Origin: Semisulcospira habei
Taxonomy: Eukaryota; Mollusca; Gastropoda; Semisulcospiridae
Direction of reading: 5' to 3'
Assembly (NCBI GenBank): GCA_036245525.1
Contig: BTPG01000005.1
Span: forward strand, 124,005,558-124,069,557
DNA length: 64,000 nucleotides
Below are positions 10,019-64,000 of the stretch, one piece after another. Within the stretch, counting starts at the first letter, position 1. Each line of letters begins with the position of its first letter. Under the pieces are notes generated by a model. That model was not told where the DNA came from and did no database searches. It saw only the letters and a list, made by a program, of their open reading frames with translations. Both the position numbers and the translations under genes were made by a program.

Positions 10019-10580
10019 TAGATCTCAGGGTCACCCTGGTCAGCCCCACAGGGTGGGTTTTTCTCTCAATTCTGGGGCATGCATGTGTTTCTGTCTACCC
10101 TTTGTCCATTCACCTGTATAAATTTGCCTTTTTAAAACTCTCCCTACTGTCTGCACTGCCTGTAGCTCTTGATATTGGATGTGTGTTGCTAAATGGTCTT
10201 AGCTTTATGTCTTGGCCCCATGTGTTAGGTTTATTTAACTCATTCTACCCCAGACACACCACGGCAGGATAAGGATCCACCATGATAGTTCAAGGGTGAT
10301 GCCAGAATAGCTTGGCGCCTACGGGCGCCAAGCTATTCTGGCATCTCCTTTGAACTATCATGGTCGATCTGTGCCCTGCACTGCAATGCAGTCTTGAGAG
10401 GACAGGGGCAAAATTTAAGGATTTTGGTGTTGGGGTAGAATGAGTTAACGTATTTGACCGGCAGGCGACATACATGGCAATGTTCTGTTTAGGTGGGTTT
10501 TTTTTTCACAAGCAGTGCAGGCACGTCCTGAGAAATCCTAGTGGCTGTCGGGACGTTAAGCAATGTACAATCAATCTGAT
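10019..10580 (+). mobile_element. SINE-2 copy split by a palindromic MITE
   Basis: Plus-strand copy from CAGGGTCACCCTGGTCAGCC to GTTAAGCAATGTACAATCAATC, interrupted at TTAA by the element 10239-10444. Also lacks the CCACCCGGG head. Confidence 0.88.
10239..10444. mobile_element. Palindromic TTAA MITE, family A, inserted in a SINE
   Basis: TTAA (10235-10238, 10445-10448) with ends CTCATTCTACCCCA / TGGGGTAGAATGAG. The interior holds a ~38-bp-per-arm hairpin GATAGTTCAAGGGTGATGCC, AGAATAGCTTGGCGCC, loop TACG, then the complement. The split SINE on either side rejoins exactly at TTTAACGTATTTG, as in the uninterrupted SINE copies. Confidence 0.93.
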
Positions 10581-11105
10581 TCAAAATGTCAGTTGGTTTA
10601 CATGGTTGTATTGGACATGTTCTCAGCAACACCATTTTGGTCACACCGGCTCAGGACTTTCTGGCACACACCCAGCGCCGGATGGCAGCAGGATGTCCAA
10701 AGCCATCGGGATCTATGCTGCAGAATCATGGCACCCCAGCCTCTGCCACAGAGGGTGCGTCTGGTAGGAGGGTGCATGGACGGCAGCGGAATGCTCCCAA
10801 TTACAAACTGGTAAGTAAAGTGATTCTATGATCATCTTCATTTTATTGGCTGGCGTGCGTGCGAAGCAAAAGTGAGTTTATGTTCTGGGCCACTGGTCGT
10901 CCGTCCGTCGTCCATGGTAAACTTTAACTCATTCTACCCCAACACCAAAATCCTTAAATTTTGCCCCTGTCCTCTCAAGACCGCATTGCAGCGCAGGACA
11001 CAGATCGACCATGATAGTTCAAGGGTGATGCCAGAATAGCTTGGCGCCCGTAGGCGCCAAGCTGTTCTGGCATCACCTTTGAACTATCATGGTCGATCCT
11101 TATCC

Positions 11106-12891
11106 CAGGGTGGGATTCTTCCGCGTTTCCGCGGATTTCCGTGGAAATTCTTTCACAATTCCGCTGAAGCATATTTATTTTCCGCGTCTAATAACAACAA
11201 AAAAGACGAGAAAAAAAAAATCTTCTTAAATGGCAAAAAAATCTCAAATGGGTTGGATTTGTATGTAGTTTGGTTCACTATCGCCCGACACTTCCGGTAG
11301 CTTTAGGTCGCAGTGGAAAATGGTGGTGAAAAAGGATATTGTCCAAGACAGAGTGCCGTTTAGTGTGCATCTGAACATAAACTGGTACGCACATTCCATT
11401 TTTATACTGCAGATCAGGAGTGTCATAACAAAGTCCATTTTCGGGTGTGTTTGGTCTCGCTCCCCCTGTCGGTTTTTGGTTACTTTGGCGAACGGTGGAC
11501 ACGCGTGCCTATCCCCCCCCCCCCCCCCCCCCCTGTCGTTTGATTTTTCGGCCGCTGAAAATGAAGGACATGAAACCCACCCCACCCCACNNNNNNNNNN
11601 NNNNNNNNNNACTGAAAATCAATAGTGTAACAAAACCGAGCTCACAAAACTTGCTCGAACAAGTCTGGTCTGGTACATAAGACTCGTCCGCTTGTTCCCC
11701 GCATTTAGACATAACATTTTGGAAAGACCAAACGATCGATTTTTAGATCAGTTTTTGCCTGGATCGGACTTAGTCTTCGCGTTAGGTTTGAAAATGACCC
11801 GGTTGTTTTGTTTTATAATTTATTCATAGGACAATTAGCCGGTGAGATGTATGACGTCAGCTCTGTAAACGCGTTAGTTGTTTTATCGTTCTATGATGTT
11901 AAGTTCAGGTGTTGTCGACAGTGTTGTGCGTGGTGTGTGTTTTTGAAAAGTTCCGCACTGGTCCCTTGCCTGACCAGGTGCTGGTTGCGCAAATAACGCC
12001 AGGAGCACAACGGTTATGTACATAGAAACCAAAATGCTTTTGTCCACGTATGGTGTATTCAAACCGCCCGTGTACATAATGAACTTATCTTTGTAGTCAA
12101 GTGACGACGACCTAACCAAAATTGGAAATCTGTCTGCATAAATTCCTAAAAGATATGTGATGAAAAGAAATAACAACCATTATGCTCGGACTGCCCACGC
12201 AGGGCTGTCCCTACCCCGACAAATTCTAAAGACCCTCTCTTGTCAAGCCGTAGCATGAAAGAAATGGGACAGTGTACTGGGGAATTGTATCATAAACGTC
12301 CTACTTAAAAGGGTAGCTAGCTAACAAAAAATCATTCCTCATAAATCGTCTCTGCATGTTATATAACCAAATACAGTATAATACATGTTTTTGTTTGTAT
12401 GTACGTACGTGCGTGTGCTTGCGTGTGTTATGTTGGTATGGTGTTGTTGTGTGTATTTTGCATGTTATAGAACCTTTATGGGCAATCTGCACTGCCCTTG
12501 AATTATCTGTTTGCAACTGGCGTGTCTTGGTTGTCGTGTATGTTTTTGTTAGGTTCAGAGCCCATTGAATAAAGTTAGCCCTGAGCGGTCCCTCCTAGTG
12601 ACTTGCCTGCAACAAAACACACTTCATACCCTTTAGACGCGACGTTGAATGCCTGGATGAAACTTTTACCCACCATTGAAAAGGGTTTGGCATTGAAAGT
12701 CCTTGTTTGTCATGCGTTGAACTAAATATATGTGTGGACAAGCAAAGTGAGTTTTTCGGAATATCGACTCTGCAGTATTGAAGAAAACTCCTGTAAAAAG
12801 TTAAATTAACCTAATTAGTTATTAATTAAGGGTCAATAGTGTTGGTCGTTTGATTTTCCGCGTTTTCTTTCTTACTAGAATCCCACCCCTG
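11106..12891. mobile_element. hAT-like DNA element nested in the MITE, with assembly gap
   Basis: Inverted ends CAGGG(G)TGGGATTCT and 6-bp direct repeats TTATCC at 11100-11105 and 12892-12897. Left sub-terminal DNA is a small TTCCGCGTTTCCGCGGATTTC repeat. No transposase frame is recognisable, so it is non-autonomous. Contains 20 Ns (11591-11610) and a C tract (11513-11534). Confidence 0.8.
11591..11610. other. Assembly gap (20 N)
   Basis: Twenty undetermined bases adjacent to a C-rich tract that likely blocked sequencing or assembly. Confidence 1.
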
Positions 12892-13266
12892 TTATCCTGC
12901 TGTGGTGTGTCTGGGGGTAGAATGAGTTAACGGTGGCATTTTCTCGGAGACTATTCAAGCCACATTCTTCAAGCTTGGCCCAAGGATACTTTGTGGCAAG
13001 ACCTTTTTAAACATGCCAATTTGAGTGACCTCTCTCAAAGGGTCACGCAGGGTTGACAAATGTGTGAAAACTGCTTGCATTTTCAGAAAACGTGGATTTT
13101 GACTGCTGCAGAAGCCAGCCCTCGTCACCGAGGTCACACATATGTAAATCGGTCATACACGGGATTACTCTTTTTATTCTTGTGCAAGGCCCCTTTAAAC
13201 CAAAATTGGGCTGTTTCTGTTTCTAATGCAGCTTTGGTTTTAATCTTTCTTTCTTTCTTTCTCCAG

Positions 13267-13490
13267 TTGGCAAATGGCGCCTGGGATGGACCCGAGACTG
13301 AGAGCAGTGCCAGCGCATCGCAATACGAGGGCAGTGATGACGAGGAGTTTGTTCCTGGCTCGAGCTCACCGGATTCAGAGGGTGTGTCGGCATCAATTGC
13401 TGGGATCTCGGACATAGACAGTATTGTATCGACTATGTTAGATTTCATCAAAGTGGCAGGTTTGGGGTGGCCAGGTGTTGGTGACGCTTA
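13267..13490 (+). CDS. Probable acidic upstream exon of the Crypton-like gene
   Basis: Follows a pyrimidine run (TTTCTTTCTTTCTTTCTCCAG) that is a good 3' splice site. The frame reads LANGAWDGPETESSASASQ..EGSDDEEFVPGSSSPDSEG, a Ser/Asp/Glu-rich segment of the kind found at the N-terminus of this protein family. It ends in TAG at 13488, out of frame with the 13518 ORF, so a small intron (acceptor TTAG near 13517) or a frameshift must separate them. I could not find a donor that restores phase with certainty. Confidence 0.45.
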
Positions 13491-13517
13491 GTACCAGCAA
13501 GGTGCAGTGTGCGTTAG

Positions 13518-15686
13518 GGGGGTGGCAATGAGAATGTGGATAGGCAGGAGGAACATGATGCTGGAAAGAGTGGGGAAAGAGCACTTACAGAAGAAACAGG
13601 TGTGCACGTGTCGCAGAGAGGGAAAGGAAAGTACAAATGGGACAAGAAACATGCATGCAAATTGTGTGGCAAGCTTGTCTTGAAAATGAGCACGCACTTA
13701 CAAGATGTCCATGCAGATGAGGCTGACGTTGCTAAAATTTTGTCGATGAAAAAAGGGACCAAGCAGAGACGTCGAGCATGGATCAGACTACAAGATGAGG
13801 GTGATTACATGCATAACGTTGCTGTTCTTGAAAACAAATCCGGATGTTTGATTCCTAAGTATCGCACCAAAACTAGTAAGGTAGACGACCTTCTCGCCTG
13901 TAGCCATTGCAAAGGGCTCTATCAAAAAAAGCTGATCTCTGTACACTCAAAACGTTGCTGTCAGAAGCCAGGAGGGTTTCAGATCACTCGGCGAGGGGAC
14001 GCCGCTCGCCGTGGTCGGCTCATGCTTCCAATACCCTTAGACGTTGAATTTTCCTTCTACCACAAGGTCTTGGCTACCCAGAGAGATGATGAGATAAGCC
14101 GTCTCATCAGAACTGACCCCTTGCTTCTTGAGTATGGAAAGAGATTATTTGACCGCAGGGACATTGAAGAACACACGGCTGGACAAATCAGCTCCAGGAT
14201 GCGGGAGTTAGGGAGACTGTTAAAGATTATCAGAGTGAGGTCAGAAATGAAAATCGCAAGTTTAAATGCTGTGATCAATTCAGCTAGCTTTGATCATGTT
14301 GTCCTGGCTGTAAAAGAGCTAGCAGATTTTGATGAGGACACACATCAGTTCAAAAAAGGCAATCTCGCAATGCGCATAGGCCATGCTTTGAAAAAGTGTT
14401 CACAGATCAAACAGTCACAGGCATCCAAACAGCTTGGACAGGGTTCAGACGACAGGTGGCGACAGGAGCTCTCTGAGGCGCAGCGGTTTGACTCTGTCTT
14501 CAACGGGGACTGGTATGATTGTGTGTCCGCTACAGCAGCCCAGTCGGTCGGGAAAATGACCATGAACAAACCCAAGCTGATCCCATCATGTGAAGATGTG
14601 AGGAAGGTCCAACAGCTTCTTGAGACAAGGATGGTTTCGGAAGATTATCCGACAGTGGTTAAAGCAACTCTTTGTGCTGTATCACTTTTCAACCGAAAAC
14701 GAGGGGGAGAAGTTCAGAGAATGAAGGTGTCAGACTTCCAGAATGCTAAGATTGGATCGATCACCAATCAAGATATCTTGAAAGGTCTCACAGAGGTTGA
14801 GAAGAAAATGGTGAATCATTTTCAGCGAGTGGAAATCAGAGGCAAGTTTAATAGGAGTGTTCCCGTTTTGCTGACGAAGAAGATGATGACAACTGTGGAC
14901 AGAATCCTTCAAATGAGGCAATCGGTGCCAGCTCTCGCTGATTCCCAGTACATCTTTGCCACACCTTCTGGTCAGAGGCCTTACAGAGGCCATGATGTTC
15001 TGAAGGCCCATGCCCTAGAAGCAGGGGTGTCATACCCAGCCATGTTCACATTTACTCAGTTGCGGAAGCAGGTTGCAACTTTGGCTCAGTCAATGGCCAT
15101 CTCGGAGTTAGACCAGGATCAGCTGGCAGATTTCCTTGGCCATGATATTCGGATACATCGCCATATCTACCGCCAACCTCAAGACGTCCTTCAAAAGGCA
15201 AAAGTGGCAAAGATTCTTCTGTCAGTTAACAATGGGATGACAGATTTTGAGAGTTGCATTAGAGCTGAGCTGGGCGATGATGAAGAGATTGACTTTGACA
15301 ATGAAGACGCATCAGAAACTGGCAGAGAGGTCTCGGGGGGAACAGCACCTGTGAATGAAGCAAGTAGCAAGTCAGCAACACAGGAATCGATGAGCATGAC
15401 GGAGAAAAGACGTCCAGAGCCTGATGACAATCTAGATAGTTTTGATGATGACAGTACTGCGTCAGCTCCTGTTCGAAAGAAAGCTAGATTTACAAGAAAA
15501 CCATGGGGGGAAGCTGAAGAGAAAGCTGTTCAAACTCGTTTCAAGACACACCTCGTCATGAACAAACTTCCTGGAAAGGCCGAGATACAGTATGCAATGG
15601 CGCTGGAACCTGCACTTAGACATAGGCGCTGGACAAACATTAAGGATTACGTCCGCAACAGACTGAAAAAGTTACAAAAGAAATGA
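13518..15686 (+). CDS. Crypton-like tyrosine recombinase with N-terminal zinc fingers and C-terminal Myb/SANT-like domain
   Basis: A 2.15-kb uninterrupted frame. Counting from codon 13536 (716 residues), residues 41-59 form a C2H2-like finger (CKLC...H..H), followed by a basic RRRAW segment and a second Cys/His motif at 122-141 (CSHC...H...C). Residues about 350-565 resemble a phage-integrase fold: FNRKRGGE (Arg box, ~385-391), FTFTQLRKQ (510 = second Arg; the usual HxxR His is Thr507), LGHDIRIHRHIYRQP with His536 and probable nucleophile Tyr545. An acidic linker (575-645) precedes RKPWGEAEE...RRWTNIKDYVRNR, a Myb-like tail. No ATG starts the frame at 13518-13536 (first codon used is GTG), so an upstream exon probably supplies the start. 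The architecture is like Crypton-derived proteins common in aquatic invertebrates. Function as transposase versus domesticated regulator is not decidable here. Confidence 0.75.
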   Translation, partial: GGGNENVDRQEEHDAGKSGERALTEETGVHVSQRGKGKYKWDKKHACKLCGKLVLKMSTHLQDVHADEADVAKILSMKKGTKQRRRAWIRLQDEGDYMHNVAVLENKSGCLIPKYRTKTSKVDDLLACSHCKGLYQKKLISVHSKRCCQKPGGFQITRRGDAARRGRLMLPIPLDVEFSFYHKVLATQRDDEISRLIRTDPLLLEYGKRLFDRRDIEEHTAGQISSRMRELGRLLKIIRVRSEMKIASLNAVINSASFDHVVLAVKELADFDEDTHQFKKGNLAMRIGHALKKCSQIKQSQASKQLGQGSDDRWRQELSEAQRFDSVFNGDWYDCVSATAAQSVGKMTMNKPKLIPSCEDVRKVQQLLETRMVSEDYPTVVKATLCAVSLFNRKRGGEVQRMKVSDFQNAKIGSITNQDILKGLTEVEKKMVNHFQRVEIRGKFNRSVPVLLTKKMMTTVDRILQMRQSVPALADSQYIFATPSGQRPYRGHDVLKAHALEAGVSYPAMFTFTQLRKQVATLAQSMAISELDQDQLADFLGHDIRIHRHIYRQPQDVLQKAKVAKILLSVNNGMTDFESCIRAELGDDEEIDFDNEDASETGREVSGGTAPVNEASSKSATQESMSMTEKRRPEPDDNLDSFDDDSTASAPVRKKARFTRKPWGEAEEKAVQTRFKTHLVMNKLPGKAEIQYAMALEPALRHRRWTNIKDYVRNRLKKLQKK

Positions 15687-16525
15687 ATTGAGCCGCCACT
15701 CGCAGGCATTTTCGATTTCATACAGATTTATTACATCAGTGTTATTATTGGGGTGGTTTCAGCATGTATAGCCTGCTTTTTTTTTTTTTTTTTTTTTTTT
15801 ATCTGATGGACGCCTGGATCATTTGTGACCCTCTCTCTCACAAAATCAGTCTTAAGAACTCGCATTTTGGATGTTTTGACATATATGCATTTATGAAAAC
15901 TACAGTGTTTGCTGATTACTGTGATATATGACTGTATGCTGTAGTGCAAAAATTGTAAAAGCTGTTCTTAAGTGTTTAAAGTTGTTAAAGCCTCCGGCGG
16001 CCATTTTGAGAAAACAGCCTGTGAAGTTTCTGTGTGCAGCATAATTGGGGCCAAGGGCAGACTTTTAAAATCATTTTTTTACCTATTTAATGGCATTTTT
16101 CATGATAAAGATTTTAACCATACGATACTTTGGTGTATGTAGAATACATTTCTCCCAAAAAGTGAAAATGCCCCAGATTGACCCCCCACCACATATTATT
16201 GCGTGTAGTGCTGATTGGCTCGCTGCGAGTTAAGACTGGTTTCGTGAGAAAGGGTCACATTTTGTATACTGTATAACCTTTGGATTTGCAAAACGAAACA
16301 GCCGGCTGGGGACAAAAGACAATATAATAAGATAAGAAAACCATTGACAATGTAAAAATTGATTACAAGAGTGTTATTGGGGGGGGGGGGGGGGGGGGGG
16401 CGGATCATTTTGTAATATACTGCATGCCATTTTAAAAACTCTGCAAATGAAAGAATGGTTGGTTGTACTGCCATACCATTTTGCAAATGAAAGAATGGCT
16501 GGTTGTTTGTTGGAGACGAAAGACG

Positions 16526-16533
16526 TTAAATAA
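16526..16533 (+). terminator. Candidate poly(A) signal downstream of the Crypton-like gene
   Basis: AATAAA within GTTAAATAAAGGC about 840 bp after the stop codon at 15686. The intervening DNA has a T tract (15777-15800) and a G tract (16380-16400) and no other gene. Weak inference. Confidence 0.3.
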
Positions 16534-16607
16534 AGGCTGAAGTTTCAAGTGATTTCTTATGTTGTCAGTTAGTTAATTAATGTCAGTGTTCTGTTCTGTC
16601 ATTTTAA

Positions 16608-17174
16608 CTCGTTCTACCCCAAGATCGGAATCCCCAAATGTTGACGTCGTCTTCAGAAGACTGCGTTGCAGTGCAGGACACAGATCCACCATGATAGTTC
16701 AAGGGTGATGCCAGAATAGCTTGGCGCCCATAGGCGCCAAGCTATTCTGGCATCACCCTTGAACTATCATGGTGGATCTTTATTTTGCTGTGGTGTGTCT
16801 GGGGTAGAATAAGTTGAGCCCAATGTTGAAGTCGTCTTCAGAAGACTGCGTTGCAGTGCAGGACACGGATCCACCATGATGGTTCAAGGGTGATGCCAGA
16901 ATAGCTTGGCGCCCATAGGCACCAAGCTATTCTGGCATCACCCTTGAACTATCATGGTGGATCTTTATTTTGCTGTGGTGTGTCTGGGGTAGAATAAGTT
17001 AAGCCCAAATGTTGAAGTCGTCTTCAGAAGACTGCGTTGCAGTGCAGGACACAGATCCACCACGATAGTTCAAGGGTGATGCTAGAATAGCTTGGTGCCC
17101 ATAGGCGCCAAGCTATTCTGGCATCACCCTTGAACTATCGTGGTGGATCTTAAATTTTGCTGGGGTAGAATAAG
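16608..17174. repeat. Tandem trimer of the family-A palindromic MITE
   Basis: Three head-to-tail units of about 190 bp between outer TTAA sites (16604-16607, 17175-17178). Each holds GTCGTCTTCAGAAGACTGCG, a TGCAGTGCAGGACAC segment, the palindrome with loop CATA, and TGGGGTAGAATAAGTT(A/G)AG. The internal junctions retain GTTGAG and GTTAAG, decayed or intact TTAA. Confidence 0.92.
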
Positions 17175-17248
17175 TTAAGTGTTCGTTTCTTCGTCTGGGT
17201 CTTTTTCTATCTTTGATATTTTTCCACACTTTTTGACCCGCATCATAG

Positions 17249-17465
17249 TCATACTGAGGCTAATAGCTTCAAATCTGTTCACTGCCATAATTCTATGCAA
17301 GCTACATTACAGTACTTACAGATGAGGACATAGACCAATGGCTTTAGTTCAAGGGTGGTGCCACAATAGCTTGGCGCCTAGAGGCACCAAGCTATTCTGG
17401 CACTAACCCTTGGACTATTTCAGTTACACTAGTTGCACACACTGGTGTATTCCGAATGATAAGGG
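17249..17465. mobile_element. Palindromic element, family B
   Basis: Runs ATACTGAGGCTAATAGCTTC ... ACATAGACCAATGGCTTTAG, hairpin GTGCC(A)CAATAGCTTGGCGCC / complement, and CACACTGGTGTATTCCGAATGATAAGGG-TTAA (17466-17469). The left TTAA is lost. Same family at 29525, 40203 and 63913. Confidence 0.85.
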
Positions 17466-18059
17466 TTAATATTCAAAATGCTCTGTTGCTGTTTGTCTGA
17501 AACTCCAGAGTACCCCAAAACGCACAAAAAAAGTCCTTTAATTTCCAGAATACATTATGTTGATTCTCACATCAATGCCATGATAAACTGTTTTGCTTCA
17601 AAAGGACAAAACGCAGCAATGTTTAAACGATTTCCTCTGTAAAAATCATAATCGAAAGGTTTCGGGCCAGTGTTTATTGAATTTTGCACCATACTATGTA
17701 AAGAATGTTAAAGCACACATACACATTTAAGTTGGGAAAAAAAAATTAATGTGAAAAAGAAGTATTCCATGAACTTGACCTTATTACAGACGCCTATTGT
17801 TGTGAAGACACCCATTTTGACTGTAATGCCAGTTTCATTTGTGTGAGAGAGACACCCACCCACTTTATTGGCAGAAACCCATTTTTTCGGCATCTAGTGG
17901 CTCTGTTTCTAGAAAATGTCTATTTTATTTTAAGTTATAGAGCTTAGTTATAATGTGAGTTCTAAACATTCGCATCAATTCCAGAGCCCTAGAATAAATA
18001 GAAATATGGGAACCCATTTTCACATGAAATGCTAGGTAACCCACTCTGATGGTTGCGTC

Positions 18060-18061
18060 TC

Positions 18062-18141
<80 letters not shown>

Positions 18142-22000: not shown

Positions 22001-22937
22001 CTTTACTAACTTTGGATAATGGCGTTGTTATCATGTTCCATTCGGAGGACGGCGCATCTGGGCGTAATTTGGGCAAAAGTCAGCAAGTCCATTATTGAGA
22101 AACGGGACATACTCATTGCCGGTATAACATGAAAATATCGCTTTTCTCAAAAATGGGCATAATGGCTTTTGCCAAATGACGGCTACAGTGACCGCGTCCA
22201 GTCGATCAAACGAGACCAACTATGTTGCCACCATGGCAGCTCAGCTGGCAGTGCCGCGTAATCATAGGTTGGTGCTTCACGGCAGACGTATTTTAATCCT
22301 TTCCGGCACTGCCGAGAATAAAATCCAACACGATCAACTGCAAGAGGCACAGATCCTCCTGAGCGCTCCGCAGTTGCGTGGGGGCTCATGAGGATTTATG
22401 CCTCTTGCTGACAACACTTTGTATCCATGTTTCTTTGATGGACATGGGATCATAGACATTGAATTGACAGTGGTTTCTACCACTGGCAGGGTACGGGTTA
22501 ATCAGCTGACCAAAACCAAGTTATCGTCGCGAGGACGAGGCAGCGGTTTCAGTCGCACAAAAACAGTTCAAGGGTAGTAGATGGCGCCGCTTCGGCTGCT
22601 ACTTACGTGACGCTGGTAGTCGATCAACCTCCCGCGATTCGCGCTGGAAACGAAAAAGGCTCGAGGATGTGTTATCTGAAACCGGCTGGTAGTCTGTTCT
22701 GCCTTTTATTATTACTTTATTTCTAATTGCCGTCATTCAGTTCCCGCGAGCGTCCATCTATGGACGCGTTGCACGATTATTCCGACTGTAAAACTGGGCG
22801 CCTACGATGATCTCAGTGTGGAGAAAATGGGCGTGGTGTGCCTCAGCTAACTGGCCATCAGTCTTCACTGCACGGATGACTAGCTTATCCGGCCGGACAC
22901 TGGCGCCCATTTTAATCCATTCCACTTGCTTGAAATA
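22001..22937. other. Non-coding DNA, no gene recognised
   Basis: Small frames only (for example 22176-22391) without motifs. Confidence 0.4.
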
Positions 22938-23022
22938 CATTTTACGATAGTTTAAGGGTGGTGCCAGAATCGCTTGGCGCCTAAGGCGCCAAGCGATTCT
23001 GGCATCACCCTTGAACTAAAAT
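22938..23022. repeat. Palindromic hairpin element with co-varying arms
   Basis: CATTTTA...AGTTTAAGGGTGGTGCC, core AGAATCGCTTGGCGCC, loop TAA, exact complementary arm. Both arms carry the same change (AATCGC/GCGATT) relative to the common AATAGC/GCTATT. Confidence 0.88.
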
Positions 23023-23176
23023 GTTTGAACTGTCTCCAAATCTGCAATGTAGCATTCATAGGAAAATAAACACTTTTGAAAATGTTCAGCCTCAGGATGT
23101 AGTGGATTAACAGCAAGGCCGCATTTCCCAAATTTTGGAGGTGTCACCCAATGACTGTGTACCAGTTGCAGGAGGT

Positions 23177-23276
23177 GGATCGACCATGGATAATTCAAGG
23201 GCAGTGCCAGATTAGCTTAGCGCCTTCAGGCGCCAAGCTAATCTGGCACTACCCTTGAATTATCCATGGTCGATCC
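23177..23276. repeat. 100-bp near-perfect palindrome
   Basis: GGATCGACCATGGATAATTC ... GAATTATCCATGGTCGATCC around loop TTCA. Both arms share AGATTAGC/GCTAATCT and the GGATAATTC/GAATTATCC changes that distinguish it from other copies. Confidence 0.9.
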
Positions 23277-23839
23277 ATCTTCTGTTGTAGCCGTGGGTCG
23301 GGGCTAAATGGGTTTACTCCAAAGGGTATTTATACGCCCGAGCGCTCTTTCCCAACATTTGCATTTGAAGGAGGCACGGATTGTCATTAGCCCCTGCAGT
23401 TCATGAGATTCTATGCCTTTTGCCAGTCAGGACATTACACACAAAAAAGGGGGACTTGTAATTTGTGTGTGTGTGTGTTTGGGGGGGGGGGGGGGAGTGT
23501 GAAGATGACGTGATCAGTAAAATCCTAACAATACATGTACTCGTTACAATCGTATGTCCATCTGAACAAACAACTTTGTGCCTCCAGTAAAGGAAAAAGT
23601 TGAAATGTGTAATCTGACAATTTTACCACTTTAAACGATACGCAACGTTCGTGGTCGTATTTTGTACCCGGTCAACTGGTCAATGTAATATGCCAATCGT
23701 TCGATAGAATACGACTGCATCCCCTGGCTGCGTGCGCCGATTTGCGATTATGGATCTTACAGCCAACAGCCACAAGATCCGAAATCACATATCAGAGGAC
23801 TTTTATATCCCAGACAAAAGCCTGGAAAGAAATGATTTT

Positions 23840-23903
23840 AGCCTTTTGACCGTCGGTGGTACTTTTTATCGATAAAAAGTGCTACCGACAGCCAAAGGGT
23901 TAA
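23840..23903. repeat. Hairpin of the CCCTTTG...GTCGGTAGC family
   Basis: GCCTTTTGACCGTCGGTGGT, ACTTTTTATCGATAAAAAGT, GCTACCGACAGCCAAAGGG-TTAA; the left TTAA is decayed. Confidence 0.8.
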
Positions 23904-24190: not shown

Positions 24191-24192
24191 GC

Positions 24193-27645: not shown

Positions 27646-27721
27646 TGCATGACCGATAACGTTTAGAAAATTCCCCAACCAATACATGTATAAATAAGAC
27701 ACAACCTCAGGAGATGAAACT

Positions 27722-27797
27722 GACAAAATAGATCAAGGGTAGATGGGAAGGTGGCAACCTAATTTGGCACTACACTTCAACTATCATGGCCAATCCA
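27722..27797. repeat. Decayed palindromic element
   Basis: TAGATCAAGGGTAGATGGGA ... TTTGGCACTACACTTCAACT, ATCATGGCCAATCC. Only remnants of the right arm are recognisable. Confidence 0.55.
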
Positions 27798-28153
27798 ACT
27801 CCCCCAGCAAGTACAGACTTTCTAGACGCATCCAAAAGTTACTAGGGTAGCACTACATGTGACCAAGTAAAAACATTAGCACATACACATACCACAAATT
27901 GCAGATAAAATTATGTTATGCTGTTTATTTTACAAGTTTCTTTGAACAGAAAACACAGTGTGTACAATGTACATGGGCCAGTTGAAAAGACAACATTAAA
28001 AATGACTTCCTTATAAACATCCACCTAACTTTCAGTTTTAATCTAAAGCACGACTCGCAAGAAATACCAAAACCCATGAAAATATTGTACAATGCATTGA
28101 AAACAAATTTTGACTTAAGGTTCATAATTATGTTATGCATATTTAGAGCTGCA

Positions 28154-28210: not shown

Positions 28211-28470
28211 TCACTGCAGGCCCACTATATACAGATATGTGACGAAGAGCTACAAATCTGTACGCAGCAAGTTTCCAGCGAGTTAAAGAATTAAGTGGTC
28301 CATGACTAGTCCTTTCAGCTGTCAGTAGTGGTTTTTGTCGCGATTATTCCCGCTATCAACAGCCAAAGAACTAGTTGGGCTCATCTTCAAAGACAGAAGT
28401 AGTCATATAATTTGTTATGTTTCTTATGGTCTCTTACTCATTCAGCCCTGACGCACCACAGCAAGACATG

Positions 28471-28566
28471 GATTGAGCATGATAGTTCAAGGGTGGTGCC
28501 AGAATAGCTTGGCGCCCATAGGCGCCAAGCTATTCTGGCACCACCCTTGAACTGTTATGCTCGATC
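28471..28566. repeat. Palindromic hairpin element (family C flanks)
   Basis: GATTGAGCATGATAGTTCAA ... complement ending GCTCGATC, loop CATA. Flanks CATTCAGCCCTGACGCACCAC and CTGGGGTAGACTGTGTTAG recall family-A ends in decayed form. Lies in the probable EIF3E 3'UTR. Confidence 0.88.
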
Positions 28567-28943
28567 TGTCTCTAGAATTGTAATACAAGCCTTCAGAGGG
28601 CAACTTCAAAATCTGGGATTTCAGTACTGGGGTAGACTGTGTTAGCCCCGGTGTCTGTATGCAGCCACTAGCGAGCAACATCGCCGACTGCATGTGCAAG
28701 GAGGTTAAAACTTAAAGTACCTGGTTTGATGGTCCACAGTTCTGGACCTTCTGCCTACAGCCATAAGGTCCCAAATTAAACACGAGTGCACATCTATAAT
28801 TATTTTAATTTCAAAATAATCACTGAATATAAGAAAATATGTTCTATGACTGCAACTGGCAGAAATTAAAGGCCCAAGCAGGCAATAAATACAATTTCAA
28901 AAGAGTTAAGAAAAAATAGCCAGATAATCGTACGTTAATTTAA

Positions 28944-29005
28944 CCCCCTTATGCATGCAGTCACTGGTAATGTACACAGTACTGGTGGCTGCATGCACAA
29001 GGGGG
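28944..29005. repeat. 62-bp TTAA-flanked hairpin
   Basis: CCCCCTTATGCATGCAGTCA ... TGGCTGCATGCACAAGGGGG with TTAA on both sides (28940-28943, 29006-29009). Confidence 0.85.
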
Positions 29006-29162
29006 TTAACATCATGTCCGTTTTGAAAAAAGTAGTATGCACATTGTGCAAAAACAGATGTTTTTCAGCCAGGCTCCAGTACACATCGTCCGTTCAGTTG
29101 AGAAACATTGTGACGGAAAACATCCACAGTCCAGAAACAGTGCGACGGAAAACATCTACTAT

Positions 29163-29186: not shown

Positions 29187-32100
29187 CTGAAAAAAAAGAA
29201 ATAAACATAACTCATTCAGCACTGACACACTACCATAGGCGACAGATCGACCATGACAGTTCAAGATTGGTGCCAGAACAGCTTGGTGCCTTAAGGCATG
29301 TATATGATCGTCTTGTTATTTACCTGCGTATTTTTCAATGGGCTGGTGATTGGGTGCCTGATAGGAGGGGGCAGGGGATCTAACCGTTTGTCTGTCCACC
29401 GCCAAGTAATATCCCTTGGTATGTGTACTGTTAACAGCGCTAGCCTCACCTATCTGGTTTGTGAGTAAGGGGCATAAATTGTCATGAGCTCCTTGCAGAA
29501 GCAGGGACTGATGAGAGTCCATGTCTCTAACCCATATCATACTGAGGCTAAAAGTAAAAGCTTCAAATTTGTACACTGCCATTTGCAAGCTACATTATAT
29601 TACTACAGATAAGGATATAGACCAATGGCTCTAGTTCAAGGGTGGTGCCAGAATAGCTTGGCACCTAGAGGCGCCAAGCTATTCTGGCACTACCGCTGAG
29701 TTAGCATACCTCACCCTGTACCTAGGTTAAACGCACCAGTGGTGCCATTGTTGCTATTTTCACACCAGACTGGTCTCTCAGACCGGTCATGTGCACCAGA
29801 ACTGTGTGCTCAAGTAGGCTTCTGCACTTGTAGTGTGGTCTCATATGTTCACGCAGAAGATTGTGATCGCAGTCGAAAAACGGTTCCTTTTCGGTTTTAC
29901 TTTTAGTGCCTTTTACCTCTCCTAACACGCCAGTTTTGTGTAGAGATGGCAGAGGCTTGTGTCATGCCCCATGTTTCATGGTGCTAGCATAAGGAAGCAT
30001 TATTGCCGGATTGCATATGGGAAGGGGTGTATTCTTTTTTCATCATATTTTGCAGCAATCAAACGACGGTCACGTGATTCTTTCTCTGAGATTGCTCATT
30101 ACAGATGCAGAAAGCACACACTCTAAACCGACCTGGTGCACATGACCGGTCCAAGTGACCGGTCTGGTGCGAAAATAACAACAATGGCGCCGCTGGTGCG
30201 TTTAACCTACACACAGGGCGAGGTTTACCAACTCAGCGGCACTACCCTTAACTATTTTAGTCAATCTTGTATCACACACTGGTGGACACAGGAATTGAAG
30301 GAACTAAAACTTAAAAGAAACTCACTTCTACTTTATTGTGGAGCCCGGCCCGTTTCTCTATGTTAAGAGCCAGAACCTGTGACCTGAAAGCCAAATTCTT
30401 TGTCTTCTCAATCACTTGCTGGTACGGAGACACAGCCTGGGCACCCATCACAACATGGCCCTGAAAAAAAATAATAAAGGTGAGAAAAATAAAAACAAGA
30501 CCAGTGTCAACAATCTATTTTCAATGCTTTAACCTTTAGCACTCTGCTTTCCGCTGTCAGTTCTTTCCCCTGCACCTGCATTCTTTTTTAGTGGGCTAAA
30601 CCCAACGCTACCCTATTTACTTCAAAAGCCTACAACTTTTTCATTTTTCTATGTATGATTGTGGAATTTGGCATGTATGTAAATACATGAATCAAGATTA
30701 TGTCTCAATTCTTAAAACTGTGTTGTCTGTGTTATTATCCTAACAAAAAATAATAATAATCAATGCTTACTACGCACCGTTTCCGCGTTCACTAGCACTC
30801 GATTCAGAATCACTCCTCTGCCCATCACCACCATCTCCCACCCCCCCTCGATCTCAAGTCTTCTTGCAAAAACCCAAGAAAGTCTTCATCATCGAAATCT
30901 GACTCCATAAAAGTATTCCTTGATGAATGCTTCTAACTCCTCATCGGTCATCTTTTGTCAAAATGAAGCCGTCAGAACAAACTCTCGCTTAGAAAATTCG
31001 AATCGCTCAAACACACTCGAAGTTAGCAAGATGGCCAATATAAAACGGAAGCAAGCCTCATTTACAATCACCCACAATCCTTTGCAAAGGCTTCATAGCA
31101 ACCCATTGTGTTTACCATAGACGATTACGAGCAGACCACGTGGTGGCGACATATGTCGCCATCCGATAATGAAGCAAGATGGCGGCTGGCGACAAATGTC
31201 GCCACCAGCGTGCTAAAGGTTAATTATGATAACACAGACAAGTTAGAAAAGGCCATACAGAGATCAACTGGAATGAAATAAATGTCAAAATTATAGGCAA
31301 AGTACATCTGAAAATGATGACACTTGCACAACATTATTTCTAGAAACCAAAAATGAAAAAGTCCTTAAGGCTCATGTGCATGACCCATCCAGGATGGACA
31401 GACAACGGACAGATGACCACTGGCCCACTACAAAGACTCGCTTTTGCTATCGCACATGAGCCAAAAATCTGTTCCATCTGGAATATTTCATGTAAATTCC
31501 CTCATGAAGCAGTAGTTGCTGCCTTTATGAAAGCAATGTTATCCATCCAGCCCTAACTCACTAGATCTTACAGATCAACCATGAGAGTTCAAGGGTAGAG
31601 CCAGATTAGCTTGGCACCTGATGGTGCCAAGCTAATCTGGAACTGCCCTTGAACTAACATGGCTGGTCCATTTCCCACAGCTAGTACTGTAGTAGTAGTA
31701 GTAAGTTTGTATAAACGCCTACAAATTTGCAAATCATTATTAAAAGCTAAAACACATTCGAGACATGCTGCACCCCATATACGAGGCTTTATTCTGTGTA
31801 TCCAGATGCGGCACGCCTCAAATGAGCTAACATACCAGTTTGGAGTCAATCTTGGCATCGAGACGAGCGTTACGTATCAAGTTGACAATCCAACGCTCCG
31901 CTTCATCCGGTGACATGTTCAGCTTCTCAGCCAGCATACTGCAACAACAATCCACCGACATGATTCACAACTGACCAAAGCAAACACTAAAAGTAAGAGC
32001 ATACCGACGATTAATTTTGTCACTGGTATCATCATGAGTGCTCTTTCTCCAATGCAAGCTTTGAAAGTTGGAGCCAAGCATATAATAGGGTCGGGTCCCA

Positions 32101-38100: not shown

Positions 38101-41100
38101 TTCCCTTCCATTGTCGATGAGCACATAAATGTTGTAACACGAAAATATATCACTTGTGTATTTAGTGCACAAAAACATGGGTTTGTTTTTGCCTTTGACT
38201 GCTCGCCTAGACCTTCTACCACAAAGTCTACACAAAGAATTCACGGCCTCCAAATGTCTTGGAAAGTAATGTCCATTCTCCATGGCTTTAACATGCTATA
38301 CTTTACATATATGCATCAGATAAGGGCACACACACATAGTGATACATCCGGCACTGAAAATCAGTCAGTTTTTACACATACGCACTGTCTACCGCAGAAG
38401 GAAAGTTGCTCGGACTATACACATTTTAATCAGGTAATAACTATAGAATTTTAAGAGGATTTCAAAAGAAACTTACATGAGCTTGAAGAGGACATTTAAA
38501 GTATTGTATTACATAATCATATTTACGATTGTAACGTTGTAGCCACGGTAATAATAAGTTATAAACTAAACTGATCACCTGCCTGACAGCCTTCAACAAG
38601 GAACAAAGAGCTCTACGCTTCCAGCCTGCAGCTCGGAAGAGGCTGGCATCACCCGCGTGCACTTATCAGTGATATGGGTCACAGCCCAACTAAAGAGAGC
38701 AATTCAGAGAAAGGTAAGCTGCCATGCCGAAGCTGCTGCCGGCTGCGCTCCGCCGTGAAGCGGGCGGACAAAGTGCCAGTGGTCTTGTCCGGGTTAGGTC
38801 TGTCGATCACCGCGTTGCGGGGCGATTGAGGCCGCTGCCGGCCACGCTCCGCCATGGAGCGGGCGGGCAAAGTCCCAGTGGACGCGTCGGGGCCAGAAGA
38901 ATGTTGAACCGCGTAGCAGGCCGACCGAGGCCGCTCCCGGCCACGCTCCGTGGAGCAGGCGGGCCAGGTCCGAGAGGGTATGACTGGACCAAATGAGAGC
39001 ATGGACCGGGGACCTGAAGATAGTACATGGGCGCGACAAGTTAACTCCCCAGCGTCCGAGCATGCGCGCCTGACCATCCCTTCCGCCGTGGGAGGGGGAG
39101 CGGGTGTAGGAGTGTAGACCTGGGAAGCCGCAGGTCGTTCGCACCAGTAAAATCCCCACAGCTGCGACCATTGTTCCTCCACCCAGGTGGTGCACGTGTC
39201 ACAAGTCTGCCCGGAGGCACAGCCAGAACAGGGGAGGCATACAGCATGGGTGTCGCTTGGCCACTGAAAAGCCCCACACTTCACGCAGGTCTTCACCTGT
39301 AAACTGCAAAAAAAGCAAACGTGAAAGGCGACCAGGCCTGCCCCCCCCCCCCCCCCCCCCCCCCCTGATGAGCTAAGCGTAAAAGACTGGTGGGAGACTC
39401 CTGATCATGTGACTTGATAGGGAGGTAAGAGAGGCCACTCAGGGTTTCTTGGTAACGACTCCCTGGAGTCGCCTCCCTGGTTGTGTAGTGTACACAACGG
39501 ATGCTTAGGCTGAAATCGGTAAGCTAAGTGTACCTTCCTATTAGTCATGCCATCGGAAAGAGTTTTGAGAAAACAATGACGGTTCTCTAGCAAGGTTTGC
39601 TTAACTAGACGTGATGTCATTTTTATCTGGTTACTTCTTTGGCAGCTTTTCTGCCACGCATGCCAAAAACGTCATGTGCATGCTCCGGAATGCGCTCTGA
39701 CCAGCCCCATTTCAAAGCCTACCATATTTCTTAAATACGGTAGACAAAAATGGCAAAGGTTTTACACCACCCGGGGTAGTTATATTAGAATATCAAAGCT
39801 CCGAATTGGTGTGACATGAGCCAAAGAGGGAGGTTACTGACAACTGCCACAGTAAATTCTGCAACCTCACTAACTCAATCTTGAACACCTTTAAATTCAT
39901 CAGCCTCTGATGCAATAATTCAGACCCTAAACATACTTCAATACACTCAACAATACACTTTCATAACCATTTGGCTGTCTGTGGCAACTTTTGTTGCGAT
40001 GATTCTTGCAGGAAATTTAATTTGGGAAACAGCACACACACAATTTTTTTTTTAATCTACTGAGGAGCAAAAGAAATGCGATATTTTTGGAAAGTGTTTC
40101 CGATGATTAAAAAAATATCACATTTCTTTTACTCCTCAGTTAACAACTTTAACTCTTTTGAGACGTGCCGCATGCAGATGCGGCACATCTCAAAAGAGTT
40201 AATCCTTATCATTCGGAATACACCAGTGTGTGAAATAAGTTTGACTAAAATAGTTCCAAGGGTAGTGCCAGAATAGCTTGATGCCTCTAGGCGCCAAGCA
40301 ATTCTGGCACCACCCTTGAACTAAAGCTATTGGTCTATATATCCTTATCTGTAAGTACTATAATGTAGCTTGCATATGGCAGTGTACAAATTTGAAGCTT
40401 TTAGCCTCAGTATGAGTTGGGTTAACAACCTTGTGCATGCAGCCACTAGTACATTACCGGTGGCTGCATGAACACAGAGATTAATAATTGCAAAGCCCAA
40501 AACCTCACCTGATGCTGATGCACTCGTGGATGCGACAGAATGTCTCAAAGATGAGGAGCCGGGCGTTCTCGATGAAGTCCTCCAGGCAGGCAACCAGGAA
40601 AAAGTCATTCATGAGTACAGTCTCACACTCACGAAGCTTCTGCTGAGCACTGTTAAAGTCGAAGTTCACGTACAGGCACATGATGAAGTCTGTGATCGGG
40701 TCTGAGTAGGTGTATGACTCCTGCAAAATTAATAAAAAATTTAGGATAAAAAACAACGAAAAAATATTATGTACAAGAAAAACAAGCCAAAGCCCTTGAG
40801 GCTCATGTGCATGACCGATCAACATACTTAATCTAAAAGACAAAGCCCTTAAGGCTCACATGCATGACCTATCAACATACTTAATGATTAATCTAATTGT
40901 GACTTTGATCTTTCTGACAGGCGACTTGTTTCTCAAAATGAACACATTTTTCACTTTTCTCAACCTCCTATGACCCTTGACCTTTGCGAGTAGTGAACCA
41001 AATTAGTTTGCATTGAAAGGTCTTGTCATCAGTTACCTTTCTGCTACATTTGGTTGAAATGTTTGCAAAATTAATGAAAAATACAAAAATTCTAACAAAC

Positions 41101-53100: not shown

Positions 53101-56100
53101 TTCTTATTTACTCAGGGTTCAAAGGGTTAAGCATCATGAGAGGGGTGGGCAATGGCAGAGGAGGGTCCGCGGCGAGGCTGAGGAGATTGGTGGTCCAGCT
53201 CCTGCTCCAGCTGAATGGCGCGACAAGGAGAAAGATCACATTGCAGCCCATGAGCTTCAGCAAGACCTTGGGCACTAGCACCATCGGAGGGTATGCGTAG
53301 GCCATAAGGCCCTCCCCAAGAGACGGAGAGCGCATCCACCGCCCACACGAGGGGGTCCGGGAATGGGGCGATGAAGATGGGCAGCTGCCTGTTCCATAGC
53401 TTTGTGAACAGGTTGATCAGCGGGGTCTCCCAGTGCGCGCCATATTTTAAAGGCATATTTAGATCTTGTCTTACAGCCCTGACCTCGCGCTGGGACCATA
53501 CGGCGTTGAGGCGCGTCCCCTGGGTGGTGGATAGGGGGTCCCTCGTGAGAGGGGTGCACTGAATGAAATAAGGTGCCGTGAACCAACATGGTCTAAGGGA
53601 AGGTGACCCCGACAGAAAACCCCTGGTCCTCCTAGTAAGGGGGTTGGGCATGGGGGTAGCTTCCCCACCCTGCAAAAAAGGAAATAGCTACAAAAACGCC
53701 GACGAAAAGACTAACAGTAATTCCTTTCCTGGAGGAGGAAGGTTCTTCTACTAGAAGACTTATGACGTCCTGTGGTGAAAGCCGGAAGTCTTCGGAAGCC
53801 ACAGGACCGAGCCGCCTCTCTCTATCCAGGGATACAACCATGGGCACATGGAACGTCAAGACCATGTACCAGAGCGGCAAGGCCGCCCAGATAGCAGCGG
53901 AAATGCAAAAGTACAACCTTTCCCTGCTAGGCATCAGTGAAGCCAGATGGACGCAGTCTGGCCAGAAAAGGCTGTTAAGTGGGGAGATGATTCTGTATTC
54001 AGGTCATGAAGAGGAGAATGCCCCCCATACAGAAGGAGTAGCACTCATGCTGTCACCAGTGGCACAGAGAGTGCTGATGGGCTGGGAACCTCTTGGGCCA
54101 AGAATTATAACAGCAGCCTTTAGAACCAAGAAAAAGCTCAAGCTGAACGTCATCCAGTGTTATGCGCCCACCAATGACAGTGACGAGGAAGAGAAACAAG
54201 AGTTCTACGACCGACTCCAGAGTGCCGTGGACAAATGTGCGGAGCGAGACATCACCATCGTCATGGGCGATTTTAATGCCAAAATAGGGGAGGACAACAC
54301 CGGATACGAAGAGGTGATGGGGAGACAGGGACTAGGCTCGGAGATGAGTGAGAACGGGGAGAGGTTTGTAGACTTTTGTGCTCTAAACCGACTTGTCATT
54401 GGAGGCAGCATCTTCCCACACAGAAGAATACACAAAGCAACTTGGGTCTCACCTGACCATACAACAGAGAACCAAATAGACCATATCTGCATTAGCAAGA
54501 AATTTAGAAGATCCCTTCAAGATGTTCGAGTGAGGAGAGGAGCAGATGTCGCCTCCGACCACCATCTGCTTACCTTAAGAATGAAGCTCAAGCTAAAGAA
54601 AAGCCGCACAGAGACAACAAGAAGACAGCGCTATAATGTAGGCCTCCTGAGAGAAACTGGAGTTAGAGAAGAGTTCAAACTGGTGCTGTCCAACCGGTTT
54701 CAAGCGCTACAGGAGCTAGTAAATGAAGAGGAGGCGGTCACCACAGAGCAGCAGTGGAAGGCAGTTAGAGAGGCGCTGAACTCAACCTGCAAAGACACTG
54801 TAGGGTTCAGGAAACACCACCACAAGGACTGGCTGTCGGCACAGACCTTGAAGAAGATAGAAGCGAGGAAGCAGAAGAAAGCAGCGATCAACAACAGTCG
54901 CATGAGAGCAGCCAAAGTAAGGGCACAGGGGGAATACTGGGAAGCCAACCGCGAGGTGAAGAGGAGTATCAGGGCAGACAAGAGGGCCTACACAGCAGAG
55001 GCAGAAAAGGCAGCAGGCAGCGGCAACATGAAACAGCTCTACGACATTACCAGAAGATTGTCGGGTAAGTATGGCCATACAGAAAGACCAGTAAAAGACA
55101 AAGAAGGCAAGCCTATTGCAGACAGAGCAGACCAACTCGACAGATGGGCCGAGTATTTTGAAGAGTTACTGAACAGACCTAGCCCACCCGACCCCCCCGA
55201 CATCCAGCCGGCAGAGACCGACCTACCCATCAGCTGTGACAGACCCAGCCGGGAAGAGATCAGAAAAGCAGTGGCATTTTTGAAGAATGGCAAAGCAGCA
55301 GGGCCAGATGGCATCCCAGCGGAGTCTCTGAAAGCAGACCTAGAGACAACAGTTGAGATGCTGTACCCACTGTTTGGAAAGATCTGGGAAGAGGAGGTGA
55401 TGCCAGCTGACTGGAAGGAGGGGTACCTAATCAAGCTTCCCAAGAAAGGCGACCTCAGCAAGTGTTCCAACTACAGAGGAATCACCTTGCTGTCAGTACC
55501 AGGAAAGGTCTTCAACAGGATCATCCTAGAGAGAATGAAGAGCTCCGTTGACCCCCAGCTGAGAGACCAGCAAGCAGGATTCAGGAAGAACCGATCATGT
55601 ACAGACCAGATCGCCACTCTCCGCATCATCGTGGAACAGTCTCTGGAGTGGAGCTCCCCGCTGTACGTCAACTTTGTGGATTATGAGAAAGCATTTGACA
55701 GCGTGGACCGAGAGACTCTGTGGAAACTCCTACGACACTACGGTGTACCCACAAAGCTCGTCCGCCTGATCAAGAGCAGCTATGATGGCATGACATGTCG
55801 CGTGATCCACGAAGGGCAGTTCACCAGAGAGCTCCAGGTCAGAACTGGTGTCAGGCAGGGGTGTCTGCTGTCTCCGTTCCTCTTCCTACTGGCCACAGAC
55901 TGGGTCATGAAGATGACCACAGAGCACAGACGAAGTGGAATACAGTGGACACTGTGGACACAGCTTGACGACCTTGATTTTGCAGACGACTTGGCATTAC
56001 TGTCCCACACTCATCAACAAATGCAGGACAAGACCACGAGGCTTGCTGACATCTCGTCCCAAGTGGGCCTCACCATTCACAAACAGAAAACAAAGACAAT

Positions 56101-59100
56101 GAGGCTGAACGCAACCAGGGAAGAACCAGTCTTGCTTGCTGGCACCCCGTTGGAGGAGGTGGAGTCCTTCACCTATCTCGGGAGCATCATAGACAAAAAA
56201 GGCGGCACTGATGCAGATGTCAGAGCACGAATCGGTAAAGCCAGAGCAGCCTTTCTCCAGTTGAAAAAAGTGTGGAGTTCCGGAGAGCTGTCACAACACA
56301 CCAAAGTCCAGATTTTCAACTCCAATGTAAAAGCAGTTCTCCTATATGGAGCAGAGACATGGAGATTGACAAAAACCACAGTCAACAGAGTACAGCCCTT
56401 CATGAACAGTTGCCTTAGAAGAATTTTGAAAATCCACTGGCCAGAGAAGATCAGCAACGTCAGACTCTGGGAGAGAACAGAGCAGATAACAGCAGAGAAT
56501 GAAATTGGGCGAAGAAGATGGGGATGGATCGGTCACAGTCTGAGAAAGCCAGCTTCCAGTATCACTAGGCAGGCATTGTCATGGAACCCCCAGGGAAAGA
56601 GGAAAAGAGGTAGGCCGAGAAACTCCTGGCGTCGAGACCTCCAAGCAGACATCAAGAGACTGGGAACCACCTGGAGTAGAATTGAAGGAGAAGCACAGGA
56701 CAGGAGTTGCTGGAGGTCTCTCGTCGATGGCCTATACCCGGGTAGGGGTGACAGGCGTAAGTAAGTAAGTTACAGCCCTGAAAATGACGAGTAATTTACT
56801 CGTTATGGCGAGTGATTTTTTTTTGGGGCTTGTGCATTTTCCAATCCAACGGCGGCGAACCGCCAGCCGAACATCGGGTACGCCGGCGCGTGACCTGATC
56901 GCACTGCCAGCCGCCTCTAACATCACTTTGCGGCAGTAGCCGAACACGTCACAGGAACTGTGCGTACCATAACAGTGGTCGGTGACAGTCGTTCTATTTT
57001 TAGTGATGAACTGGTTCGTTTAGCCGCTCGCTCAGTCGCGGATGCGTTCAAAATCGACCCGACGCCGGGATCCGTGGGAGTGTAACAGGGCGGGCAAACG
57101 TTTAGTTTATGTGTGGTGTCACCATGTTATTACAAAGTGCGCGCTACATGTTGAACGCGTTACTTGCTGTGACGTCACCATAATACTATTATGGGATACG
57201 GCATCGTGCGTTTCACTTTCGATCTTGAACGAAGTTGTACATGGCGGAGAAAGAGCAAAGGAAGCTGGAATGCTTCGGATTCTTCAATCCGGCACTGTCT
57301 GATCTTGATAATCGCTTAGAAGAAAGTTGCACTTCAACACCGCCATCTCCATCGACAAGCGACAGAACCATAAATGCTACCCCTGGGCCGTGTCATTGCA
57401 CCGCCGCTATGACGGAGTTTTCAGAATTCATGGCTGTGCTGCGTGTATTTCCATGGCTAAAGCACGACGGCACTCAAATGGCATGCGCAATGTGCACTGA
57501 GGCAAACTCAAAAAGCAAGTCCAGAAATTTGAACAGAAATAAGTTTGTCAGTTTTCAGTTTTAATCGTGGTCGATCCATCTTCTGGTACACAGTTATTAG
57601 GCAAAAATTGGAGAAACACGTCTTCTGAGTCGTTAAACGGGTTGAAACAAACTTGTAAGTACATCAGTTCTCTCTCAGTTCTCTCTCACCTCACTCACTC
57701 ACTCACCCACCCACCCACACACCCACACCCACACACACACCATCACGCACACACAGTTTAGACAAGTCACACTTTGGTTGTCAATCTGCCGCGTTCAGCA
57801 GAAAACGCTATTTTTTAGTTCCCAGTCGCGGCACTGCACAAAGCCATCTCGCTGGACATTATGCACAAGCGCTACCCTCACAGCAGCTGTCCTCACATCA
57901 ACACAGGCGGGTCTGCACAAGACGCTGTGCGGAACGAAGGAAGTGGCGTGTACATCTGTTGTGCAGACCACACTACTATCTCTCCTTACCAGCTGGCGGC
58001 AGCAGCTCCAACTATCGTACAGATCTGCAGGTGCTCAACACAGCAGCAGAGCACTAGCTAGGGTAAGGCAGCAGCTTGATCCCCTGATCTCCTCACCAGG
58101 AAGCTTCAAGATAGACTGGACGCCCTGTCCACAAAATAGTGTTGCAGTGGATTCCAGTGCATTCTGGAGTAGCTGGGAAGAGGTTGACAGCCTGGCCAAA
58201 GCAGGCGCCAGACTACCTCAAGATCACAACCTCCTGTAAAGAAACCTAGACACTACAGCAACAAAGTGATTGGCAACAGCAGAATGGCTGCTGCAGCCCG
58301 TGGGCAGACGACATCAACAAGCTGAACAGGCCAGGCCACCATCTTCCATCTATGCACTGATCACTCTGGACTCGCCTCGTGAGACTGGGTCTTGCGAAAC
58401 AGCCCTATGCGAATGTGGCGTAGAAAATCAGTCTCCTAAGCACATTCTCCAGACCTGTCCATACCGAGAAGTGGTCCGCTGGCAGCTCTGACCAGAAGAC
58501 ACGTCCCTGTACACCAAACTCTGAAAACCTGCTGCCGACCTCTTGACAGCTCACTTATTGGCATCAAGAACAATATAAGATTTAATGACGGCCATCAAGA
58601 AATTGAACGTTGCAGAAGAAGAAGGCAACTGTTAGGAACCATGAAACTTTATTTTGCATATTCATATTTACACCTTTCTAGACTAAAAAAAAAATGAAAA
58701 GAAAAGGGGAGACCATAATAGACCCGCCTTACGCTAGGTAAAATATCACCTAAAAGACCAGCCATTTAAAAATAGTTACAATTAAATTGATTCGTCACAT
58801 TGAAATTAATGAAATGATCACAAATTTGTATGCTCAATATGCATATTTTGTTATGAAAACTGGCAACAAAAATATTTAATCAGATGAGCATGACGTAAGC
58901 AATTGTTATAATCATTTTGCGTTCCTTTGCGAACTGGTAAAATGCGGGTAGGGCAGCAGATTTAGCCACTGTGGCCCTTAAATGCATCACAGCATCATAA
59001 AATCAGGTTGGGAGTAACCGTGGTACTCTAACCTAACCAATAAAACCTAAACAGGACCTATCAGTTGTATACAAAATTTCTGAGGGCATCAGAAACAACG

Positions 59101-63882: not shown

Positions 63883-63912
63883 CTGTGGGACAAGAGATTT
63901 GAAAGGCATTAA

Positions 63913-64000
63913 CCCTTATCATTCGGAATACACCAGTGTGTGAAATAAGTTTGACTAAAATAGTTCAAGGGTAGTGCCAAAATAGCTTGGCGCCTCTAGG
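63913..64000. mobile_element. Palindromic MITE, family B, cut by the window edge
   Basis: Starts after TTAA 63909-63912 with CCCTTATCATTCGGAATACA, then TTCAAGGGTAGTGCCAAAAT, AGCTTGGCGCC and the first loop bases. It lies directly upstream of the EIF3E exon G acceptor. Confidence 0.88.

Follow-up and report, generated by a model that had tools for sequence, protein, structure and literature searches.

Template switching at inverted repeats in yeast genes leads to homogenization of the two arms and to inversion of the spacer between them, as described in the excerpt of PMC8604942. For the hairpins of RNA genes, PMC8794818 proposes compensatory change together with loop inversion as the strongest support for template switching, and gives this combination as extremely rare in rRNA. 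Whether selection or template switching is the source of paired changes in hairpins is an open question. The elements described here share arm homogenization, paired substitutions and inversion of the spacer or loop with the cases in these two excerpts, but there the carriers are genes under selection, while the hairpins here, at least 107,773 of them, belong to a mobile element. The loops of rRNA are constrained, whereas the more than 100,000 hairpins here show no evident constraint on the spacer. Such a number of similar hairpins amounts to a natural experiment, from which rates, tract lengths and strand bias could be obtained.

Among mobile elements, the CMITEs of Acropora corals are of similar build according to the excerpt of PMC2872659, with TTAA ends, about 100 bp, several families, an internal region better conserved than the ends, and tandem arrays. 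They differ in that the 60-nt conserved consensus published there forms no hairpin (-4.7 kcal/mol, z -0.65; compared by folding). MITEs of the piggyBac type are alike in the TTAA target site, short terminal repeats, small size and very high copy number, and differ from our family A in the termini, which in A read CTCATTC, the motif quoted in the same excerpt being CC[C/T]T. Kolobok and T2-MITE elements likewise use a TTAA target site (excerpts of PMC9587614 and PMC6004289). Kolobok termini are given there as 5'-RR ... YY-3', and a Kolobok identity is ruled out, as C follows TTAA in the consensuses of our families A, B and C alike. Among the titles and abstract openings listed by searches of open-licence PMC papers, none describes a TTAA MITE that is palindromic and has co-varying arms.

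The window, that is, the whole 64,000-nucleotide stretch of Semisulcospira habei DNA analysed here, contains 26 matches to the core GCCAGAATAGCTTGGCGCC with at most 3 mismatches, where 0.01 are expected. These make up 12 two-armed hairpins and two single arms, that at 29272 belonging to a truncated copy and that at 63976 being cut off at the window edge, which confirms the at least ten short-looped palindromic copies that a sequence-only reading had reported. An arm-profile search of the window added a strongly decayed 15th copy (E 5e-7). The loop measures 4 nt in the window hairpins, with one exception (22982-22984, 3 nt). Folding of eight window hairpins as DNA gave z values of -6.9 to -20.4, the lowest for the copy at 16683 (-61.2 kcal/mol; 0 of 200 shuffles equal it). 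The elements are as follows, none being assigned to a strand:

10235-10448, unstranded: family A element, hairpin 10273-10369, TTAA at both ends, within a larger dispersed repeat
10924-12930, unstranded: family A element, hairpin 11002-11098, ends TTAA/TTAA, broken by other DNA from about 11107 to 12890
16604-17178, unstranded: tandem array of three family A units, hairpins 16681, 16867 and 17052
17243-17469, unstranded: family C element, hairpin 17357-17403
22912-23110, unstranded: C-like element with paired AATCGC/GCGATT, TTAA at both ends, 3-nt loop
23107-23316, unstranded: family B element, hairpin 23168-23284, paired GATTAGC/GCTAATC and GATAATTC/GAATTATC, one GCTTAGC unpaired
27707-27803, unstranded: strongly decayed copy, arm profile match
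28434-28645, unstranded: A-like element, hairpin 28470-28566, ends decayed (TTAC/TTAG), GGTGCC on both arms and GAGC on both arms
29207-29295, unstranded: truncated half of an A-like element, one arm
29527-30295, unstranded: family C element, hairpin 29640-29694, split by an insertion, boundaries by eye
31536-31740, unstranded: B-like element, hairpin 31578-31662, paired GATTAGC and GGCACC, ends approximate
40199-40425, unstranded: family C element, hairpin 40256-40318, TTAA at both ends, arm differences unpaired
63909-64000, unstranded: family C element cut by the window edge, one arm

The insertion in the arm of the element at 29527 is about 550 bp long, starts at 29686-29695 and ends at 30246. 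It has the ends GCTGAGTTAG.../...CAACTCAGC and is flanked by a 9-bp duplication, GGCACTACC.

The copies at 10264 and 10996 lie within a larger dispersed repeat (about 9100-13140 and on towards 15686), which seven other loci match at 94-98% identity over stretches of about 2.4-2.5 kb and of another 280-340 bp. A young MITE burst, considered from the best 40 hits of the first element, was rejected, as the seven places examined are copies of this larger repeat; they were therefore left out of the counts. The larger repeat reaches near an ORF of 716 aa (13536-15686) whose match to Phage_integrase is weak (E 1.8e-4) and stays below the Pfam cut-off, and is possibly a multi-copy tyrosine-recombinase element. 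Its copy in the window holds about 1.25 kb at 11590-12845, where the seven others have about 10-54 bp. Non-LTR retroelement-like ORFs with an RVT_1 domain (Pfam) lie at 53762-56764 (+), together with endonuclease domains and DUF6451, and at 3436-4356 (-). No transposase was detected in the nine of 21 listed window ORFs that were compared with Pfam.

A self-complementary 34-place hairpin pattern, in which the variable sites were left free, has 107,773 exact matches in the species' own 1.98-Gb genome, and its reversed control has none. The first 100 matches listed are dominated by AATAGC/GCTATT (51, by eye) and ATTAGC/GCTAAT, mostly alike on both arms. For relatives elsewhere, one pattern was searched in genome_contigs and viral_contigs, with 0 matches. 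Where both TTAA ends are intact and the element is uninterrupted, its length is 199-227 bp, within the roughly 500 bp usual for MITEs, and terminal inverted repeats, a putative target-site duplication and a high copy number are likewise present. The elements are short TTAA-ended MITEs, probably non-autonomous, and their mobilization in trans would probably be due to a piggyBac-type transposase.

Consensuses of the short (S) and long (L) sides were built from flank-defined members (38 of family A, 41 of B, 12 of C). The layout runs from TTAA through a short terminal inverted repeat, a short side of about 39 nt and a 46-nt arm to a 4-nt spacer, and continues with the second 46-nt arm, a long side of about 80 nt, the terminal repeat and TTAA. 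All three consensuses carry TTAA at both ends. Exact TTAA at the fuzzy end motif is found on the S and L sides in 34 and 35 of 47 copies in family A, 22 and 19 of 52 in family B, and 6 and 3 of 14 in family C; in the remaining copies the end is changed or the end motif was not found. The terminal bases are CTCA on both sides in A, whose ends are alike, CCCA and CTCA in B, and CCCT and CCCA in C; CTCATTCTACCCC is an end sequence of these elements.

From the centre out to TTAA, the consensuses of A, B and C align on both sides, with the centre best conserved and the flanks between families more diverged and gapped than the arms. The sequence-only reading had seen one core in families with different ends. 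The shared centre holds, but the ends are homologous though diverged, and the suggestion that the core spreads by itself is not supported, since whole elements align from TTAA to TTAA. The shared core is hence the conserved centre of one old superfamily comprising A, B and C. Between the consensus arms of A and B, 4 of 46 columns differ, the same four on both sides, and none is fixed on one side only. Family C has a fixed difference between its arms (AGTG on the S side, GGTG on the L side).

The arm-matched substitutions that had been quoted from the window, namely AATCGC/GCGATT at 22963-23003, GATTAGC/GCTAATC with GATAATTC/GAATTATC at 23177, and GGCACC/GGTGCC at 31600, are all present. The proposed comparison of arms, made on the window copies, found them more alike within a copy than between copies: over a 36-column core in 10 copies, with the array counted once, there are 33 mismatches within copies against a mean of 47.7 after swapping arms between copies (p 0.0001), a result against which the inserted sequence in copy 29640 works, as it was counted as the outer right arm and adds mismatches. 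Unpaired arm differences are as visible as paired ones, for example at 11053 (AACAGC on one arm), 16918, 17081 (two), 17360 (two), 29647, 40267/40290 and 23206 (GCTTAGC on one arm), and in the family samples below most individual arm differences are unpaired.

For the family samples, exact duplicates (132 to 116 rows) and then copies in eight loci (L001-L008), the seven larger-repeat loci among them, were dropped (108 left). Ten copies fetched for a paired C, rows with weak flank assignment and copies with more than 6 mismatches (1 of 40 in A, 2 of 51 in B, 1 of 11 in C) were left out, and the counts, which were alike before this step, are given after removal of nine near-duplicate pairs (BLAST, 131 rows). 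Pattern-fetched copies come from the first 2.9 Mb of contig 1 and are conditioned on an intact centre. Family A (39 copies) has 8 paired and 34 one-sided changes, with a shuffled mean of 1.0. The eight paired changes are two shared states (25G in five copies, 28G too in three), so that A is without a private paired change and family B carries the weight of the test. Here, the 49 copies used (of 51) together show 10 paired changes, 122 one-sided changes and 4 mismatched doubles; 2000 arm shuffles gave a mean of 1.9 paired changes and none reached 10. The ten sit in nine hairpins, two of them in adjacent columns of one copy (L051). Family C (10 copies) shows 24 one-sided changes and no paired one.

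Genome-wide, site 51 (the second A of AATAGC, fifth letter of the pattern) is changed on one arm in 1,332 hairpins (642 + 690) and on both arms in 246, where about 8 doubles would be expected under independence for an estimated N0 of 55,000 (7 to 10 for N0 of 66,000 to 44,000). Among the matches listed, 41 of 50 doubles are matched against 41.5% expected (binomial p 5e-9), the expectation being derived by eye from the letters of 100 single changes listed (C 10, T 45, G 45), and each of the three other bases occurs among the matched changes. An excess is seen for mismatched doubles as well: they are 9 of the 50 listed, which scales by hand to about 44 of 246, where about 5 are expected. Copies thus differ in age, and doubles are inflated about ninefold; scaled to the mismatched doubles, the matched excess is about 6-fold and not 30-fold (by hand). 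Changes on both arms hence exceed independence, and age differences and inherited subfamilies explain part of this co-variation. The A>C transversion at site 51 is paired in 68 hairpins with many different spacers. Ten fetched paired-C copies comprise one of family A (L099), one of family C (L102) and eight of the GGTG type; in L099 the 46-nt arms are otherwise identical. Five of these ten AATCGC copies have the same spacer type (by eye), perhaps as members of a single subfamily.

Seen from the long side, 10 of 14 family C rows have TAGA as their spacer and 3 have the reverse complement, TCTA; without duplicates and copies chosen for their state, the numbers are 9 TAGA, 1 TCTA and 1 TTGA. Across the genome, 235 dispersed copies carry TCTA between arms that keep the asymmetry of family C, and the ten of them that were fetched have C flanks as far as the sequence reaches. 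The spacer is therefore inverted with the arms kept; by substitution, TAGA to TCTA takes two transversions. Copies with the S state on the L arm have TCTA in 99 cases (11%) and TAGA in 773; some of these could instead be copies with a converted S-side flank, and the place C1:236742343 is listed both among them and among the 235 TCTA copies with family C asymmetry, on opposite strands. An inverted spacer is combined with an L arm in the S-arm state in L046 and with a paired change in L102, and family B has the inverse spacer pairs TGAA/TTCA and TGAT/ATCA. The TCTA copies could also be an inherited subfamily.

Arm copying together with spacer inversion is the footprint published in the excerpt of PMC8604942, and we therefore take template switching as the main mechanism. 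We consider it probable that the palindrome of one old TTAA superfamily has repeatedly been rewritten arm to arm by template switching, with transposition from masters spreading the results. At a near-perfect central palindrome, a replicating polymerase could switch template onto the other arm and back, which would copy a mutation of one arm into the other; the inter-strand form of the switch would also flip the spacer. We infer that switches have occurred both in active lineages, where they would give rise to subfamilies set apart by matched differences, and, in place, in individual copies. Between switches, ordinary mutation would add unmatched changes, and decay of a single arm would be the commoner fate of any one mutation. 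The arm-to-arm conversion or template switch of the earlier reading thus finds support in the genome-wide counts and the spacer inversions, its interpretation as a whole only in part. A burst from masters already carrying the paired states, which it had named as evidence to the contrary, applies partly: many copies share the A/B difference, and some of the AATCGC class likewise represents a subfamily state. With two paired arm states dominating the genomic matches listed, those of the window are mostly old subfamily states. These had to arise in pairs at some point.

Inheritance might account for everything, if rare masters with perfect hairpins, selected for transposition as folded DNA, had seeded the subfamilies and the arms had then decayed independently, with no conversion in place. 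The A/B states common to many copies, the mostly unpaired private changes with none paired in family A, and the better conservation of the core than of the flanks between families all agree with this, but the scattered paired changes of family B, the paired transversion in the otherwise identical A hairpin of L099 and in a C copy, and the spacer inversions between intact arms do not, and we regard it as unlikely. Ectopic gene conversion among the more than 100,000 copies could swap whole centres, so that matched states and spacers cross families. Breaks induced by hairpins are expected to be repaired from other copies, which, like the conservation of the centre across families, would favour such exchange. 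L099, however, has kept around its paired C the A-type GATGCC and, in the orientation of its family, the CATA spacer, and the spacer of L102 is the inverse of that of its own family; no obvious donor tract therefore fits, and this explanation appears improbable.

Selection on a folded RNA, a small-RNA hairpin precursor whose pairing is kept by compensatory changes, would suit the stable stems and the conserved core. No Rfam family matches the window at the gathering threshold, single copies carry many unpaired changes, and the matched changes at site 51 reach all three other bases, all of which argue against it and make it the most remote of these explanations. As an extension of the template-switching reading, the palindrome might act as a self-correcting module, frequent switching in place re-perfecting the hairpin in tens of thousands of resident copies. 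We hold this only tentatively and think it rather doubtful; if true, self-correction would keep the hairpin fit for transposition against decay, and the ends would diverge while the centre stays shared.

Within the tandem array at 16604-17178, unit 3 has CACGATAG/CTATCGTG, a T>C change on both arms, which units 1 and 2 (CATGATAG) have on neither. A segmental copy on another contig (L023, 641-1615 against window 17004-18000) is 95.6% identical to the window over 997 bp from 17004 onward. It holds a single hairpin unit where the window has three, and only one of its arms carries the C, which weakens the array as an argument for conversion. L023 agrees with a half-converted ancestor whose state was resolved differently, with an ancestor that was paired and later underwent CpG decay in L023, or with a fusion of units 1 and 3 into a single unit. 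At another locus (L031, about 1515-1750), one side of a C element is locally amplified in tandem (AACTATTTTAGTCCAACTTATTTCACACACTGGTGTATC, four copies). Further short hairpins, whose stems are unrelated and whose ends are TTAA or nearly so, are found in the window at 40149-40202, 28642-28710, 28938-29009, 40422-40484 and 23837-23903, some of them adjoining the elements described above with one TTAA in common (40199-40202; 40422-40425).
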